DNA of 64,000 bases, taken from assembly GCA_012840965.1 (NCBI GenBank), contig DUVQ01000180.1, positions 1-64,000 on the forward strand, written 5' to 3'. The translations under genes and the position numbers were made by a program. This stretch comes from Oligoflexales bacterium (GTDB lineage: Bacteria > Myxococcota_A > UBA9042 > DTJE01). Below, piece by piece: positions 17,155 through 57,169 of this stretch (positions are counted from its first letter, which is position 1; the number at the start of each line of letters is the position of its first letter). Below the pieces are notes generated by a model that saw only the letters and a program-made list of their open reading frames with translations, ran no database searches and was not told the origin of the DNA.

Positions 17155-17229
17155 TTTGTGTCCTTAATACGGCTCAAATTTGTGTCCTTAATGCACCTCA
17201 ATCATGTTGCAGCTTTGTGTCCTTAATAC
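17155..17229. repeat. Three direct repeats TTTGTGTCCTTAATRC
   Basis: 17155-17170, 17179-17194, 17214-17229; 16 bp with one variable base. Confidence 0.9.
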
Positions 17230-17447
17230 ACACCTTAAAATCCGATTCAGAATGGGGTAGGGTTTGCTCAAAAGTTGCCTTGAAACACTCATATAAAGTG
17301 ATTTAAGTGTCAGATATATTAAATGCGTCTGTTTGGGTTTGACATTGATTATCATTGTATGTTAGCGCTCAAATCGCCTTGATGGTCGCCACCATGCTCA
17401 CCATAAATCAGGTTGTAAACGCGGCCGCAAAAAACAGGGTAGGGCCA

Positions 17448-46353: not shown

Positions 46354-46388
46354 GGTTTGGGAATTACTTGGTGTTTGGCCTGTTGGAC

Positions 46389-46468
46389 GTTGGAGTCACT
46401 TCCAAGCCGTTGGAATCACTCCCAAGTCGTCAGAATCACTCCCAAGTCGTCAGAATTTCTTCAAGAGG
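46389..46468. repeat. Tandem 20-bp repeat between convergent genes
   Basis: GTTGGAGTCACTTCCAAGCC/GTTGGAATCACTCCCAAGTC/GTCAGAATCACTCCCAAGTC/GTCAGAATTTCTTCAAGAGG. Confidence 0.9.
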
Positions 46469-47116
46469 CTACTTTAAAAGCTCGCGCACAACTCCCAGAT
46501 CGGTATCAGCAATCCCACCTGTACGCACGCAGACGATGTGATCCTGCCGATCTGTAAAGATGTGAATTGGGACCGTCGTGTCCTCGTCCAGGCCCAAAGA
46601 TTTGGCAAACTCTTCAAGTTCCGAAGGATTTACCATTCTTTGCTGCTTTATTGCCGCTAATTCTGGGCGCCTAGTCATAAAAGCCTGCAACACTTTTTCA
46701 TCTTCGTCTATGGAAAGCAGTTCCAGGTTTATATCTGTGCCAGTTCCAAGCTTTGCTTTATGCCACGAAAGGATGTGTAAAAGCTCGGCAATACAGGGTT
46801 TGCACCAAGTTGCCCACATATTTACCCACCTGGGATGCTCGCCCGTCGTTTTGCCTTGATTTAGCAACTGGGTTTTAGGCAGCGTCAATTTTGGCCCAAC
46901 ACCAGGCTCGAATTTAAGCGAGCACCATCCCTGAGGGATTACTGATGCAGATGCAGTTACTGCGTTTACCCTGGGCCTGCTGGCAGTTTCGGTAGAGCGG
47001 CCGGCCTCGGCATTAAAGACTTTTTTGGCGCCTTCCATCGCCTTTTCACAGCCCGTAAAAAGTGCTGCCATGATGGCCAAACCAACGGTAATCTTTGAAA
47101 GAAAGCTAAGGGACAT
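46469..47116 (-). CDS. TlpA/thioredoxin-like lipoprotein
   Basis: VNMWATWCKPCIAELLHIL; lipobox MAALFTGCEK. Confidence 0.85.
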   Translation of the reverse strand: MSLSFLSKITVGLAIMAALFTGCEKAMEGAKKVFNAEAGRSTETASRPRVNAVTASASVIPQGWCSLKFEPGVGPKLTLPKTQLLNQGKTTGEHPRWVNMWATWCKPCIAELLHILSWHKAKLGTGTDINLELLSIDEDEKVLQAFMTRRPELAAIKQQRMVNPSELEEFAKSLGLDEDTTVPIHIFTDRQDHIVCVRTGGIADTDLGVVRELLK

Positions 47117-51309: not shown

Positions 51310-51422
51310 GAAACAAACTCACGAAAACGCCACGGTAAAGTATCCAGCCCAGCACAAACAAGTCAAGGCTGGCGGTGGCGTTGTAATCATTTGTAGCTCT
51401 GGTGAGGATGTCATAATTTCCT

Positions 51423-51507
51423 CAAACACTTGAATGAAAGTCCCACAAACACTTGAATGAAAATCCCTCAAACACTTGAATGAAAGTTGTTCAAATGTTT
51501 GAAAACA
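51423..51507. repeat. Array R1: four direct repeats, 23-bp period (CAAACACTTGAATGAAA core), over the ATPase-1 promoter
   Basis: Core copies start at 51423, 51446, 51469 (identical 17-mers) and 51492 (degenerate). Confidence 0.95.
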
Positions 51508-51544: not shown

Positions 51545-52816
51545 ATGAAGAAGTATTTGCCAAGGATTATAGATAAATTACTGAGTGAGAGATTAGAAGC
51601 CAAAGGAGCTGTTTTATTGGAGGGCCCCAAATGGTGTGGTAAGACTACCAGTGCCAAACAGATTGCAGCTAGTTTCATATCAATGGATCAACCTGAAATG
51701 ATTAAGCAATATCAATCTATGGCTGAGCTTTCTCCGCTGGCACTATTGGAGGGTGAGACTCCGAGGTTAATAGACGAGTGGCAAATAGCTCCAAATTTAT
51801 GGAATGCGGTTAGATATGAGGTTGATCAGAGAGATGAATTTGGCCAATTCATTTTAACAGGTTCTGCCGTTCCCGCAGAAATAGGTGAGTCTATGCACAC
51901 AGGGACCGGCAGGATTTCAAGACTTTATATGAGACCTATGAGTTTGTATGAGTCTGAGGATTCAAACGGCAAAGTTACAATCAGAGATCTATTCGCAAAT
52001 CAGGAAATATCTGCTAAGAGCGATACCGATTTGGAGGAAATTGCATTCTTGATTTGTAGGGGAGGTTGGCCTAAAGCGGTCGGTTTAGCTGAGAGGTTGG
52101 CTCTTTTTCAGGCCATAGACTATTTCGACACCGTTGTCTCTGCTGACATAAGCAGGGTAGATTCTGTGAGAAGAGATAAGGAAAAAGCTAAAAGGTTCCT
52201 AAAATCCTATGCAAGGAATGTCGCAACCAGGGCCACCTTGGAGACTATTAGGCAAGATGTATTGGCTAATCATTCCGGTACGTTTGACCCTGTTACGCTC
52301 TATTCATATAGGGATGCGCTAACTAAAATCTTTGTTATTGAGGATTTACCGGCTTGGAATCCGAATTTAAGGTCCAAGGTTGCTATTAGGACAACAGATA
52401 CGAGATATTTCGTCGATCCCTCAATTGCTACTGCAGCCTTGCAACTCAGCCCAAAGGATTTGTTAAACGATTTAAACACCATGGGGCTCGTTTTTGAAAA
52501 TCTGTGTGTGCGCGATTTAAGAATATATGCTGACTACCTAAATGGCAGTATTTATCAGTACAGAGATAGCAATGGCTTGGAATGCGACGCAGTAATTCAC
52601 TTGAGAGACGGTTCTTATGGCCTGATTGAAATAAAATTGGGCGGAGACAGCTTGATTGAAGAGGGCGCAGAAAACTTGAAAGAACTGGCCTCAAAGATAG
52701 ATACAAATAAAATGAAAAAACCCGCGTTTATGCTCGTGTTATGTGCCAAGGTGCCCTTTGCGTATAGAAGAAAAGATGGTGTGTACATAGCGCCGATTAC
52801 TTGCTTGAAACCATAG
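51545..52816 (+). CDS. AAA+ ATPase with DUF4143 (COG1373-like), paralog 1
   Basis: LLEGPKWCGKTTSAKQ, PRLIDEWQIAPNLW, TGTGRISRLYMRPMSLYES, LECDAVIHLRDGSYGLIEIKLG; internal ATG preferred to the TTG at 51521. Confidence 0.9.
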   Translation: MKKYLPRIIDKLLSERLEAKGAVLLEGPKWCGKTTSAKQIAASFISMDQPEMIKQYQSMAELSPLALLEGETPRLIDEWQIAPNLWNAVRYEVDQRDEFGQFILTGSAVPAEIGESMHTGTGRISRLYMRPMSLYESEDSNGKVTIRDLFANQEISAKSDTDLEEIAFLICRGGWPKAVGLAERLALFQAIDYFDTVVSADISRVDSVRRDKEKAKRFLKSYARNVATRATLETIRQDVLANHSGTFDPVTLYSYRDALTKIFVIEDLPAWNPNLRSKVAIRTTDTRYFVDPSIATAALQLSPKDLLNDLNTMGLVFENLCVRDLRIYADYLNGSIYQYRDSNGLECDAVIHLRDGSYGLIEIKLGGDSLIEEGAENLKELASKIDTNKMKKPAFMLVLCAKVPFAYRRKDGVYIAPITCLKP

Positions 52817-52848
52817 AACGCAAAAGAGGATGCAAATGTTAATAATCA

Positions 52849-52940
52849 GCAAATTCGACCGAACAGATATCGAAAATCTGACCAAATAGAATTTGCAAAT
52901 TTAACCGAATAGAAATTCAAAATATGACCGATTTGTGATA
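52849..52940. repeat. Array R2: four direct repeats, 23-bp period (GCAAATTYGACCGAATAGAAATT)
   Basis: Units 52849-52871, 52872-52894, 52895-52917, 52918-52940. Confidence 0.93.
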
Positions 52941-52944
52941 TTCT
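52916..52944 (+). promoter_or_regulatory. Putative promoter for ATPase 2
   Basis: TTCAAA 52916-52921, 17 bp, TATTCT 52939-52944; GTGATATTCT shared with the ATPase-3 promoter region. Confidence 0.4.
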
Positions 52945-52961
52945 CTTCTCAGGAGGATGTT

Positions 52962-54236
52962 ATGGACAACCGGATATATTTGCCAAGATTGGTAGATAAG
53001 CAAGTTGCGCTCAATTTAAGAGCCTTCGGGGCAATTTGTATTGAAGGCGCTAAATGGTGTGGGAAAACCTGGACTTCAAGGCACCATTCTAAAAGCGCTA
53101 TATACCTAGGAGATCCCAGTGAAAACTTTCAAAATAAAGAGCTTATGAAACTGGCGCCTAAAATAGCTTTGGATGGAGAAGTTCCGAGATTAATTGACGA
53201 ATGGCAGGAACTTCCTTCGGTTTGGGATATGGTAAGACATGAAGTGGACAAAAGAGGGAGAAAGGGACAGTTTATCCTGACCGGTTCATCTACTCCGGTG
53301 CAAAAAGGGATACTGCACAGTGGCGCCGGAAGGATTTCCACCATTAGAATGAGACCGATGTCTTTATTTGAATCTAAAGATTCATCGGGGCAGGTTTCTT
53401 TGCAGTCAATTTTTGATGGAACATTTGAAGCAACAGCTAGTCCGAAAACTGATTTGCAGACACTTATAGAATTGACAATTCGAGGTGGATGGCCGGGTAG
53501 TTTAGGTTTAAGTTATGAAGAATACAGCATAATTCCCAAAGAATATATAAGTTCGATAGTAAACCATGACATCTATAGATTGGAAGGAATCAATAGAGAC
53601 TCAAAGAAGATGCACCGCTTGCTAAAATCTCTTGCGAGAAATGAGTCGACAACGGCTTCAATATCCACTTTGAGAGAAGATTCCAAAGAATATCAGGATG
53701 ATACTCTCGACAATGATACAATCTCGACATATTTAACCCTATTTGAAAGACTGTTCTTAATTGATAATCAGAAAGCTTTTTCAAGCAATATAAGATCGGC
53801 AACTCGTATTAAGCAGTCAGATAAAAGACATTTTGTAGATCCGTCTTTGGCCATTGCTTTATTAGAAGCAAGCTATGATGACTTGTTGAATGATTTAAAC
53901 ACCTTTGGTTTTATGTTTGAAGCTCTTTGTGAAAGAGATTTAAGAATATATGCTGAAAGTTTAGGAGGCGGGTTATATCACTATCAGGATTATAAAAACA
54001 GGGAAATCGATGCGGTTGTCCAATTGGAAGATGGCAGGTGGGGAGCTTTTGAAATTAAATTGGGAGCGGACGCTATTGATAATGCGGCAAAATCGTTAGT
54101 AAAAATACGGGATGCGTTAAAGGCAGAAGGTGCCAGAATTCCGGATGTTTTGGTTGTTATCTGTGGTCTAAGTAGTTTTGCTTATCGGCGGGAAGACGGA
54201 GTCTATGTTGTGCCGATTACAGTGCTGGGACCTTAA
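52962..54236 (+). CDS. AAA+ ATPase with DUF4143 (COG1373-like), paralog 2
   Basis: CIEGAKWCGKTWTSRH, PRLIDEWQELPSVWD, SGAGRISTIRMRPMSLFES, REIDAVVQLEDGRWGAFEIKLG; RBS aggagg. Confidence 0.9.
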   Translation: MDNRIYLPRLVDKQVALNLRAFGAICIEGAKWCGKTWTSRHHSKSAIYLGDPSENFQNKELMKLAPKIALDGEVPRLIDEWQELPSVWDMVRHEVDKRGRKGQFILTGSSTPVQKGILHSGAGRISTIRMRPMSLFESKDSSGQVSLQSIFDGTFEATASPKTDLQTLIELTIRGGWPGSLGLSYEEYSIIPKEYISSIVNHDIYRLEGINRDSKKMHRLLKSLARNESTTASISTLREDSKEYQDDTLDNDTISTYLTLFERLFLIDNQKAFSSNIRSATRIKQSDKRHFVDPSLAIALLEASYDDLLNDLNTFGFMFEALCERDLRIYAESLGGGLYHYQDYKNREIDAVVQLEDGRWGAFEIKLGADAIDNAAKSLVKIRDALKAEGARIPDVLVVICGLSSFAYRREDGVYVVPITVLGP

Positions 54237-54257
54237 GAAGGAAAAATCTAAAATTCA

Positions 54258-54349
54258 GATTTTTTGGTAACAGAGTTGTGTATTTCTTGGTAATAGGGCC
54301 GTGTATTTTTTGCCATCGAAATCGTTGATTTTTTGGTAATGTGATATTC
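54258..54349. repeat. Array R3: four direct repeats, 23-bp period (KATTTTTTGGTAAT core)
   Basis: Units start at 54258, 54281, 54304, 54327. Confidence 0.92.
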
Positions 54350-54389
54350 TAATATGTCCACGTGCTCAATATCGCTATGAGGTGGCGTA

Positions 54390-55643
54390 ATGAAAACTTT
54401 AAACTACCGGAAAAGATTGATTGAATCTCAAATCAAAAAAAAGATGTCTTATAGTGGCGGAATAGTTATTGAAGGAGCAAAGTGGGTTGGGAAATCTACG
54501 ACGGCCGGCATTTTTTCTAATACAGTTATAAAGTTGCAAGACCCTCTGATAAAAAAGAAGTATCAAATTTTAGCCACCATATCAAAAGATGAAGTTTTAA
54601 AAGGCGAAAAACCTGTATTGTTTGATGAATGGCAAGAAGTCCCCGAAATTTGGGATTTTATTCGTCTTGATATCGATGAAAACAACTATAAAGGGGCCTA
54701 TCTTTTGACCGGATCAACGAAGAAGCAAAACATAAAAACTTCACATACAGGAACAGGAAGGATTAATTCTGTTTACATGCGCCCTATGAGTTTGTATGAG
54801 AGCGGAGAATCCAACGGACTGATTTCTTTAAAAGATTTATTTTCAAAGCCTAAACTTATACCGATTATGTCCGGTATTACAATTGATGATATAGCACATT
54901 GCATCTGTAGAGGCGGTTGGCCGGGAAGCTTGGACTTAAGTAAAGACATACAATTAGAAGTTCCCAAAGATTTGCTTGAAAGTATTATTGGAAGAGATGT
55001 GGATGAAGTTGACGGAATAGTTAAAGATAAAGAAAAGTTAAGAAAGATAGTAAAGAGTTACGCTAGAAACATTTCTACATTGGCTGCAAATTCCACTATT
55101 TACAACGATCAATCATATGAAGTTATTGTAAACCCTAAGACCTTTGACACATATATGAATTCCTTAAAAAGATTATTCATTATAGAAGATGTTTTGCCCT
55201 GGTCTCAAAACATCAGAAGCTCAGCTAGACTTAGAAAAGGAAGTAAAAGGCAATTTGTTGATCCCAGCATTGCTGTTGCCGCTTTAGGACTATCACCTGA
55301 GAAATTAAAAAAAGATTTCGAGACATTCGGCTTTTTATTTGAATCAATTGCGACAAGAGATATTAGGGTTTATGCGGAAGAAATTGAAGGAACGGTTTAC
55401 TATTATAACGACACAACAGGCCTTGAAGTAGATTTGATTGTTGAGTTGAATGATGGAAGGTGGGGGGGGATAGAGGTAAAGTTAGGAGAAAATGAAGTTG
55501 ATAAAGCAAGTGCCAATTTAATAAAACTGGCTGATATTTCTGCAGTTAAACCGTCTTTCCTTATGGTGCTGACAAATGCTCAACTGGCCTATCAAAGGCC
55601 TGATGGTGTTTATGTGATACCGCTTGGATGTTTGAAGTCTTGA
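54390..55643 (+). CDS. AAA+ ATPase with DUF4143 (COG1373-like), paralog 3
   Basis: VIEGAKWVGKSTTAGI, PVLFDEWQEVPEIWD, TGTGRINSVYMRPMSLYES, LEVDLIVELNDGRWGGIEVKLG. Confidence 0.9.
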   Translation: MKTLNYRKRLIESQIKKKMSYSGGIVIEGAKWVGKSTTAGIFSNTVIKLQDPLIKKKYQILATISKDEVLKGEKPVLFDEWQEVPEIWDFIRLDIDENNYKGAYLLTGSTKKQNIKTSHTGTGRINSVYMRPMSLYESGESNGLISLKDLFSKPKLIPIMSGITIDDIAHCICRGGWPGSLDLSKDIQLEVPKDLLESIIGRDVDEVDGIVKDKEKLRKIVKSYARNISTLAANSTIYNDQSYEVIVNPKTFDTYMNSLKRLFIIEDVLPWSQNIRSSARLRKGSKRQFVDPSIAVAALGLSPEKLKKDFETFGFLFESIATRDIRVYAEEIEGTVYYYNDTTGLEVDLIVELNDGRWGGIEVKLGENEVDKASANLIKLADISAVKPSFLMVLTNAQLAYQRPDGVYVIPLGCLKS

Positions 55644-55681
55644 TGAGTTTGATTCTTAACCCTTAAGCTGCCAGATTCCAT

Positions 55682-55701
55682 CGAGCGCCAAAGCTCGTTT
55701 T
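55682..55701 (+). terminator. Possible small rho-independent terminator between ATPases 3 and 4
   Basis: CGAGC-gccaaa-GCTCG-TTTT; short stem. Confidence 0.35.
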
Positions 55702-55715
55702 GGGGGTCAGGATAT

Positions 55716-55820
55716 GAATAATTTCTCGATAAATTGCAAAAAGCATAGGAATAATTTAGAGATTATTGCAAAAATGGCATGAATAATTCTTAAATAATTG
55801 CAAAAACCATAGGAATGTTG
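55716..55820. repeat. Array R4: direct repeats, 32-bp period (GAATAATT...TTGCAAAAA)
   Basis: TTGCAAAAA G positions 55736, 55768, 55800; GAATAAT/GAATGTT at 55716, 55749, 55781, 55813. Confidence 0.92.
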
Positions 55821-55846
55821 TGAAATCGTGCCAGGAGGTGTGCTTT

Positions 55847-57169
55847 ATGAAACGGGAAATTATGAAAGACCTTGTTTCTTGGAAAAGTAAGAGAAACAGA
55901 AAGCCACTTCTTTTAACCGGAGTAAGGCAATGCGGTAAAACTTATATCTTAAAAAAATTCGGCGAAGAGCATTTCGATAGTTATGTTTATGTAAACTTGG
56001 AGAGAGATCCGCAAATTGCCGCCATCTTTAATTATGACTACGATACAAAGAGAATTTTGCAAGATATAAGCAATTTAAGCCTTTTGCCGCCAATTGTGCC
56101 GGGCAAAACTCTTTTAATTATAGACGAAATTCAATTGGCGCCTAAAGCCATAACGGCCCTTAAGTATTTTGCGGAAGATATGCCCGAACTGAGCGTAGTA
56201 GGAGCGGGTTCTTTATTGGGGGTATCCATCAGGGAGGAAGGGGCGTCATTTCCCGTAGGCAAAGTGGATCGTTTAGAAATGCATCCTATGAGTTTTAAAG
56301 AATTCTTACTTGAATCCGGCAGCAGGAGAATAGTAGATAGTGTAGAGGACTATGACATAACAAGACCGTTACCGGGCTACATTTTGGAAAACTTGAACAG
56401 GGAATATGTCAATTATCTCTTGGTTGGAGGCATGCCCGAGGCTGTTAAAATTTGGTTTGAAAGCCATAATTTGTCGGAAGTTAATGAGATACAAGACAAT
56501 ATCATCTTGGGTTATGAAAACGATTTTTCAAGGCACAGTCCGCAGAATGAATTGACTAATTTAGAACTTATCTGGAGGTCTATCCCTGAGCAACTTGCGC
56601 AAGATAACAATAAATTCGTGTTTTCAAGGGTGAGAAAATCCGCCAGAGCTAAAGATTTGGAAAAATCAATAGGCTGGCTTATAGATGCCGGGCTTATCCA
56701 TGTAGTCACTAAAGTAGATAATCCGCAAGTTCCCTTATCGTTTTACAGGGACTCCTCGTTTTACAAGATTTATCTGTGCGATGTAGGGCTCTTATCGAGA
56801 ATGGCCGGTTTTACGCTTAAATCCTTGCTCGAAAAAGATGAATCAACAGGCGGGTTTAGGGGATCTTTGACCGAAAACTTTGTGAATAACGAGCTGATTT
56901 CATTAGGATACGAGACTTACTTCTGGAGGTCGGGCAATAGTGCGGAGCTCGACTTTCTGATTGAAGATGACGGGAGAGTTATTCCGATAGAAGTAAAGGC
57001 AAATGTAAATACAAAGGCTAAAAGCTACAACGTGTTTGTAAAAAGATACGAGTGCGAAATTGGTTTTAGGTTTTCGCTAAATTATATTGGAGAAAACAGA
57101 GAGGGAGGCACAAAGACGTATAGTTTGCCGCTATCCTCAGTGTACAGAATTAAAGATTATCTGAAATGA
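55847..57169 (+). CDS. AAA_14/DUF4143 ATPase of a divergent subfamily
   Basis: LLTGVRQCGKTYILKKF, TLLIIDEIQLAPKAI, AGSLLGVSI, AELDFLIEDDGRVIPIEVKAN; RBS caggaggtg. Confidence 0.9.
   Translation: MKREIMKDLVSWKSKRNRKPLLLTGVRQCGKTYILKKFGEEHFDSYVYVNLERDPQIAAIFNYDYDTKRILQDISNLSLLPPIVPGKTLLIIDEIQLAPKAITALKYFAEDMPELSVVGAGSLLGVSIREEGASFPVGKVDRLEMHPMSFKEFLLESGSRRIVDSVEDYDITRPLPGYILENLNREYVNYLLVGGMPEAVKIWFESHNLSEVNEIQDNIILGYENDFSRHSPQNELTNLELIWRSIPEQLAQDNNKFVFSRVRKSARAKDLEKSIGWLIDAGLIHVVTKVDNPQVPLSFYRDSSFYKIYLCDVGLLSRMAGFTLKSLLEKDESTGGFRGSLTENFVNNELISLGYETYFWRSGNSAELDFLIEDDGRVIPIEVKANVNTKAKSYNVFVKRYECEIGFRFSLNYIGENREGGTKTYSLPLSSVYRIKDYLK

Follow-up and report, generated by a model that had tools for sequence, protein, structure and literature searches.

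The window analysed here, a stretch of 64,000 nucleotides from an Oligoflexales bacterium, contains four tandem genes (51545-57169) that each encode an AAA_14 + DUF4143 protein, and an array of short direct repeats lies upstream of each of them. The repeats have a period of 23 bp at the first three genes and of 32 bp at the fourth, which raises the question of what such arrays do and what sets their period.

Four ATPase genes and their repeat arrays

The genes and arrays are all on the forward strand, in an island with a G+C content of ~34-44%, against ~49-57% in the surrounding region. Array R1 (51420-51487) is upstream of P1 (51545-52816), R2 (52857-52931) of P2 (52962-54236) and R3 (54259-54339) of P3 (54390-55643), the last array having four in-register units that begin at 54259, 54282, 54305 and 54328, with the third one degenerate. 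The three arrays have the 23-bp period in common and differ from one another in their letters, and the R1 motif finds matches in its own genome only within R1. P1-P3 group together, with 39-44% identity, and P4 (55847-57169) belongs to a separate subfamily, so that the change of period from R1-R3 to R4 coincides with a change of protein subfamily, as the sequence-only reading of this DNA had noticed.

R4 (55716-55817) is composed of a 33-bp unit (55716-55748), two 32-bp units (55749-55780 and 55781-55812) and a partial one (55813-55817). Direct reading places TTGC at 55734, 55766 and 55798, with the exact steps of 32 and 32 bp claimed for it earlier, and confirms the alternation before GAAT, which runs AT / ATAG / AT / ATAG. 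GAATAA is found at 55716, 55749 and 55781, followed by GAATG at 55813, in steps of 33, 32 and 32 bp, the first GAATAA half being one base out of register. Tandem Repeats Finder reports 55732-55816 with period 32, 2.7 copies and a score of 96, and 32 bp is also the best period in the 300 bp 5' of the ATG at 55847, above 200 of 200 dinucleotide shuffles (p<0.005). The period-32 score of R4 is 17, and the rest of the 64-kb window does not exceed 9. In the whole 3.09-Mb genome, a search tolerating three mismatches finds the R4 core/unit pattern only in R4, and a reversed control pattern gives 0 matches. At 10.5 bp per turn, periods of 23, 32 and 33 bp correspond to ~2.2, 3.05 and 3.1 helical turns, respectively. 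The same genome also carries a broken P4-type DUF4143 gene (L008, contig C38) that still has a 32-bp array upstream, with AAAACTCGCTC units.

We rejected a CRISPR array as an explanation for these repeats, given that the units are contiguous, that the whole unit repeats in strong arrays (L040, L140) and that there are no unique spacers. Two other sets of repeats were observed in the window. Orphan A+T-rich repeats at 17155-17236 (TTTGTGTCCTTAATAC, three copies, 24 and ~36 bp apart) occupy a gap with a protein-kinase gene on one side and a gene without a Pfam match on the other, and a search for an ATPase pseudogene beside them found none. Three to four 20-bp repeats (CGTTGGAATCACTCCCAAGT / GTCAGAATCACTCCCAAGTC) at 46388-46456 lie just past the 3' end of a minus-strand gene (46469-47116) without a Pfam match.

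P4 as a candidate defence protein

PF13173 and PF13635 score above cut-off in all four proteins, which also match the PADLOC models for PDC-S01: P4 scores 524 bits to PDLC04786, and P1-P3 ~203-208 bits to PDLC04790. By these profile matches P4, a protein of 440 residues, is a candidate phage-defence protein of the PDC-S01 type, in which the ATPase is joined to a PD-(D/E)XK domain. PDC-S01 is reported to rank fourth in abundance among prokaryotic defence candidates, and most such candidates are described as pending validation (PMC12988326). The literature searched yielded no trigger or mechanism for PDC-S01, and relatives of P4 and P1 were not found in scans of viral contigs. In three family loci, defence-type genes adjoin the ATPase gene, namely a type I-U cas3 in Actinomyces oris (L283), a site-specific DNA methyltransferase in Glaesserella parasuis (L268) and a DUF262 protein in Segatella copri (L265).

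The AlphaFold2 model of P4, built with 51 homologues (pLDDT 90), is predicted to comprise an AAA+ domain (residues 1-205), a winged-helix-like segment (233-310), in which the loop 260-264 is poorly predicted, and a PD-(D/E)XK domain (~332-428), the limits being our reading of the secondary structure in the model. Residues conserved in P4 and its relatives include G25-K31-T32 and D93-E94 of the Walker motifs, and E343, D369, E382 and K384 of the PD-(D/E)XK domain, which looks intact from its sequence. A search of the PDB with the P4 sequence alone gave no match, and the sole result with a profile, a 49-residue match to midasin, was regarded as noise. By fold, the model is closest in the PDB to 2qen, a Walker ATPase of Pyrococcus abyssi, and it also matches STAND proteins and Cdc6/Orc1 bound to origin DNA, in all cases with modest TM-scores; the predicted fold thus resembles that of ORC/Cdc6-type DNA-binding and STAND ATPases.

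The repeat period follows the protein clade

In order to see whether the coincidence of period and subfamily holds in other genomes, a survey that the sequence-only reading had proposed, we collected 80 loci encoding P4 relatives from many bacterial phyla and archaea, the scan being run with a narrower alignment, since the one of all 15 proteins was too heterogeneous. In the 78 with enough upstream sequence, 35 arrays are significant at 33 bp and 18 at 32 bp (53 in total), one is significant at 44 bp and 24 upstreams are not significant. Among P1 relatives, counting the window's own genes, significant repeats were detected in 23 of 29 distinct upstreams, without exception at a period of exactly 23 bp. 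The wider tree includes 100 extra DUF4143 loci, for ~230 genes overall, with periods searched from 12 to 60 bp. In this tree, the P4 group (n=134) has 53 significant arrays at 33 bp and 26 at 32 bp (79 in total), 3 at other periods and 52 upstreams that are not significant, and the best period, significance aside, is 32 or 33 bp in 98 of the 134. The P1-P3 group (n=27) has 20 significant arrays at 23 bp and 2 at 46 bp. A group of ~377-aa DUF4143 proteins has exactly 32 bp in 15 of 18 cases (e.g. L173, L180, L188, L191 and L222), a small group of ~395-aa proteins has 22 bp in three of five (L252, L253, L256), and 24 of 28 members of a ~390-410-aa group are without detectable arrays.

A spacing of 32 or 33 bp is thus by far the dominant one in the P4 subfamily, and the consistency on which the earlier reading had staked its claim was found, with a correction of the value: 32 bp holds for P4's own sub-branch, whereas the subfamily as a whole has 33 or 32 bp, with a mode of 33. 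In the closest relatives of P4 (L043, L044, L045, L046 and L053) the best period is 32 bp in every case, that of L043 not being significant. The number of copies per array varies from 2 to ~7, and in ~40% of the members of the P4 subfamily an array is not detectable. Clear arrays are those of L067, a Succinivibrio dextrinosolvens gene with about six units of 33 bp, and of L277, a Bacteroides ovatus gene of the 23-bp kind. In locus L140, another array of 23 bp, also strong (score 50.5), begins ~55 bp past the DUF4143 gene and possibly belongs to a further ATPase.

Previously unused records (plasmids and phage-like contigs) served as hold-outs. All 12 P1-type hold-outs, from Bacteroidota, Actinomycetota, Chlorobiota, Bacillota and unassigned contigs, have the 23-bp period (p<=0.025), and 9 of 12 P4-type ones have 32 or 33 bp (p<=0.03), with one more at 33 bp (p=0.055) and two without an array. 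Strong branch support (1.0) is limited to the P1-P3 group, the P4, 377-aa and 395-aa groups being weakly supported and delimited by their order in a quick tree. The number of period changes on the tree is independent of these group limits: 17 changes are needed over the whole tree, versus 46-57 with shuffled labels, and 14 changes between 32 and 33 bp within the P4 group, versus 19-25. The period therefore tracks the protein clade across phyla, in bacteria and archaea, and even between adjacent genes of one genome.

The repeat letters follow the individual protein

The letters of the units behave differently from the period, being mostly unrelated from gene to gene. Their similarity climbs with protein identity and becomes high above 80% identity (permutation p=0.0025, the smallest value possible). 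Many units of the P4 group share AAAA(A/G)TGT, mostly in one orientation, and AAAATGT occurs in 37 of the 79 arrays, versus ~6 expected. The arrays are mostly made of asymmetric units placed head to tail: significant dyads were detected in 14 of the 79 P4-group arrays, in one of 20 arrays of 23 bp, whose units are asymmetric, and in 8 of 15 in the 377-aa group. Once overall identity is removed, unit similarity remains predictable from similarity in the middle/winged-helix part of the protein (p=0.04 for residues 206-310, p=0.03 for 233-290), but not from that in the AAA and nuclease regions. A scan for specificity in 25-residue windows was too noisy to indicate residues, and only the domain-level test was kept. 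The letters thus diverge along with the protein, most closely, if only weakly so, with its predicted winged-helix region; this link is suggestive but not strong.

These results bear directly on what binds the arrays. A separate regulator, from the host or from the mobile island, might do so instead of the ATPase, and direct-repeat operators at defence loci are indeed already known: in islands of type I restriction-modification systems, the promoter of the defence locus contains serial direct repeats, to which the self-encoded RptR, a small dedicated repressor, binds (PMC12255303). An HTH gene is also present upstream of two Collinsella members. However, no regulator gene is consistently adjacent at the loci examined, and the letters of the units track the identity of the ATPase. 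Since four adjacent genes of one genome have four sequences and two periods, each fitting the protein clade, a common host factor is unlikely. The arrays differ from the RptR operator, which is recognised by a separate small protein and has a conserved TAGCTA palindrome, in that their letters are private, that their units are mostly asymmetric and that they are presumably bound by the effector ATPase. We regard a separate regulator as unlikely, and self-binding by the ATPase as the better reading.

Plasmid iterons and partition centromeres are also head-to-tail repeats with a protein-specific sequence and a fixed spacing, and are often autoregulatory. The arrays could, by analogy, be sites for replication or partition, or recognition sites by which a selfish gene unit moves or is retained, autoregulation then being a secondary effect, and the patchy distribution of the family, its apparent horizontal acquisition and the copies on plasmids and phage-like contigs fit this possibility. 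Most surveyed copies are nonetheless single genes on ordinary chromosomal contigs, and the window proteins tested contain no Rep or Par domain. The other end of the gene is also without comparable repeats, save for the arrays of the next gene: in the flanks downstream of 158 family genes there are 7 matches at 23, 32 or 33 bp, 3 of which are the window's own next arrays. We thus consider a replication, partition or mobility role improbable, and an operator bound by the ATPase preferable.

A mobile-element minisatellite was likewise rejected. BrickBuilt, a MITE-like element of Porphyromonas gingivalis, carries direct repeats of 23 nt that have promoter activity (PMC4596501), but it is one repeat sequence present at many sites, and the word 'ATPase' is absent from the text of that paper. 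The 23-nt period that it has in common with the P1-P3 arrays looks coincidental.

Promoter elements lie after the arrays

Across the family, near-TATAAT hexamers are enriched 0-39 bp from the 3' end of the arrays (100 versus 54 expected), as is, strongly, the Bacteroidota-type TAnnTTTG element (23 versus 2.4 expected). The median distance from array end to start codon is 34-58 bp, depending on the group, and therefore the -35 region should be in or beside the last unit, with transcription expected to start after the array. Direct-repeat operators overlap or adjoin the promoter of their gene, and this is the arrangement found family-wide, if weakly at R4. There, we noted by eye a weak candidate promoter (55798-55826, forward strand), with TTGCAA at 55798-55803, inside the last unit, a 17-bp spacer and TGAAAT at 55821-55826. 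What supports it is the excess of -10/-7 elements directly behind arrays across the family; it is a poor match and was not listed by a consensus promoter scan. A ribosome-binding site, AGGAGGTG (55833-55840, forward strand), is found 6 bp before the ATG.

The position of the promoter is relevant to another possibility, namely that the repeats, once transcribed, work at the RNA level. Type III toxin-antitoxin loci such as ToxIN and AbiQ encode a tandem-repeat RNA antitoxin directly 5' of the nuclease gene, with a promoter before and a terminator after the repeats, and both the array-then-nuclease-gene layout and the unit length of 32/33 bp are reminiscent of ToxIN. In the present family, by contrast, promoter elements are enriched 3' of the arrays and not 5', which favours a DNA operator and speaks against an RNA antitoxin. 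No terminator-like site is predicted between R4 and the ATG, and the room for one is often lacking across the family. Furthermore, there is no Rfam match, and the encoded AAA+ DUF4143 ATPase is not an endoribonuclease of the ToxN/AbiQ type. A type III toxin-antitoxin system was accordingly rejected, an RNA role is quite improbable, and the arrays probably act as DNA.

Finally, neutral tandem duplication or chance, for which the variable copy number and the members lacking arrays might speak, is already contradicted for the family and has hardly any likelihood left, since slippage would not produce exactly the same period in arrays of different phyla whose letters are unrelated, and the control upstreams are without such repeats (among 300 neighbouring ORFs of the same loci, 273 are not significant, 2 are at 33 bp and 0 at 23 or 32 bp).

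A self-bound operator as the proposed mechanism

The reading that we consider probable is that the arrays are autoregulatory operators, bound head to tail by the very ATPase that they precede, with a geometry fixed by the clade and a sequence private to the gene. R4 would then be a multi-site operator for the P4 gene directly downstream. P4 molecules would stand side by side in one orientation, each on one 32-bp unit through its winged-helix domain, and would touch one another through their AAA+ domains. Through such contacts the protein assembly would dictate the spacing, which is thus fixed within a clade, and the letters could drift along with the protein. A filled array may repress, or at least gate, transcription of the ATPase gene, because the last unit reaches into the promoter; for the same reason, repression is a likelier sign than activation. 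Expression of a potentially harmful nuclease would in this way be self-limited. Self-binding, head-to-tail assembly and repression are what we infer from these patterns, and an ordered ATPase oligomer on its own array is the simplest account of a fixed period, of letters that are free but linked to the protein, and of the overlap with the promoter.

A speculative extension is that defence is coupled to the protein leaving the array, and that binding to the array restrains the nuclease. The array might then be a built-in off-switch, on which the ATPase, polymerised on its private repeats in a clade-fixed register, silences its own gene and parks the nuclease, until the oligomer is set free by infection or because the array DNA is lost or altered. 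We put this forward tentatively, and think it rather doubtful as it stands.

Novelty and implications

The literature consulted on PDC-S01 mentions no cis array, and arrays of clade-fixed period would be a new element of the system. The open-licence literature searched contains no earlier description of repeats at DUF4143, AAA_14 or PDC-S01 genes. The combination of a clade-fixed period with gene-private letters, in a very common candidate defence family of bacteria and archaea, therefore appears to be new.

If the off-switch extension is true, a single gene together with ~100 bp of DNA would form a self-contained sensor-effector that regulates itself, with protein and DNA evolving their specificity as a matched pair. 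The array would predict what each protein binds, the geometry of its assembly and the site at which its expression is controlled, and from the many matched protein-DNA pairs in the family a recognition code could be learned. The array also predicts misregulation of a gene moved without it, which is relevant to screens of PDC-S01 candidates.
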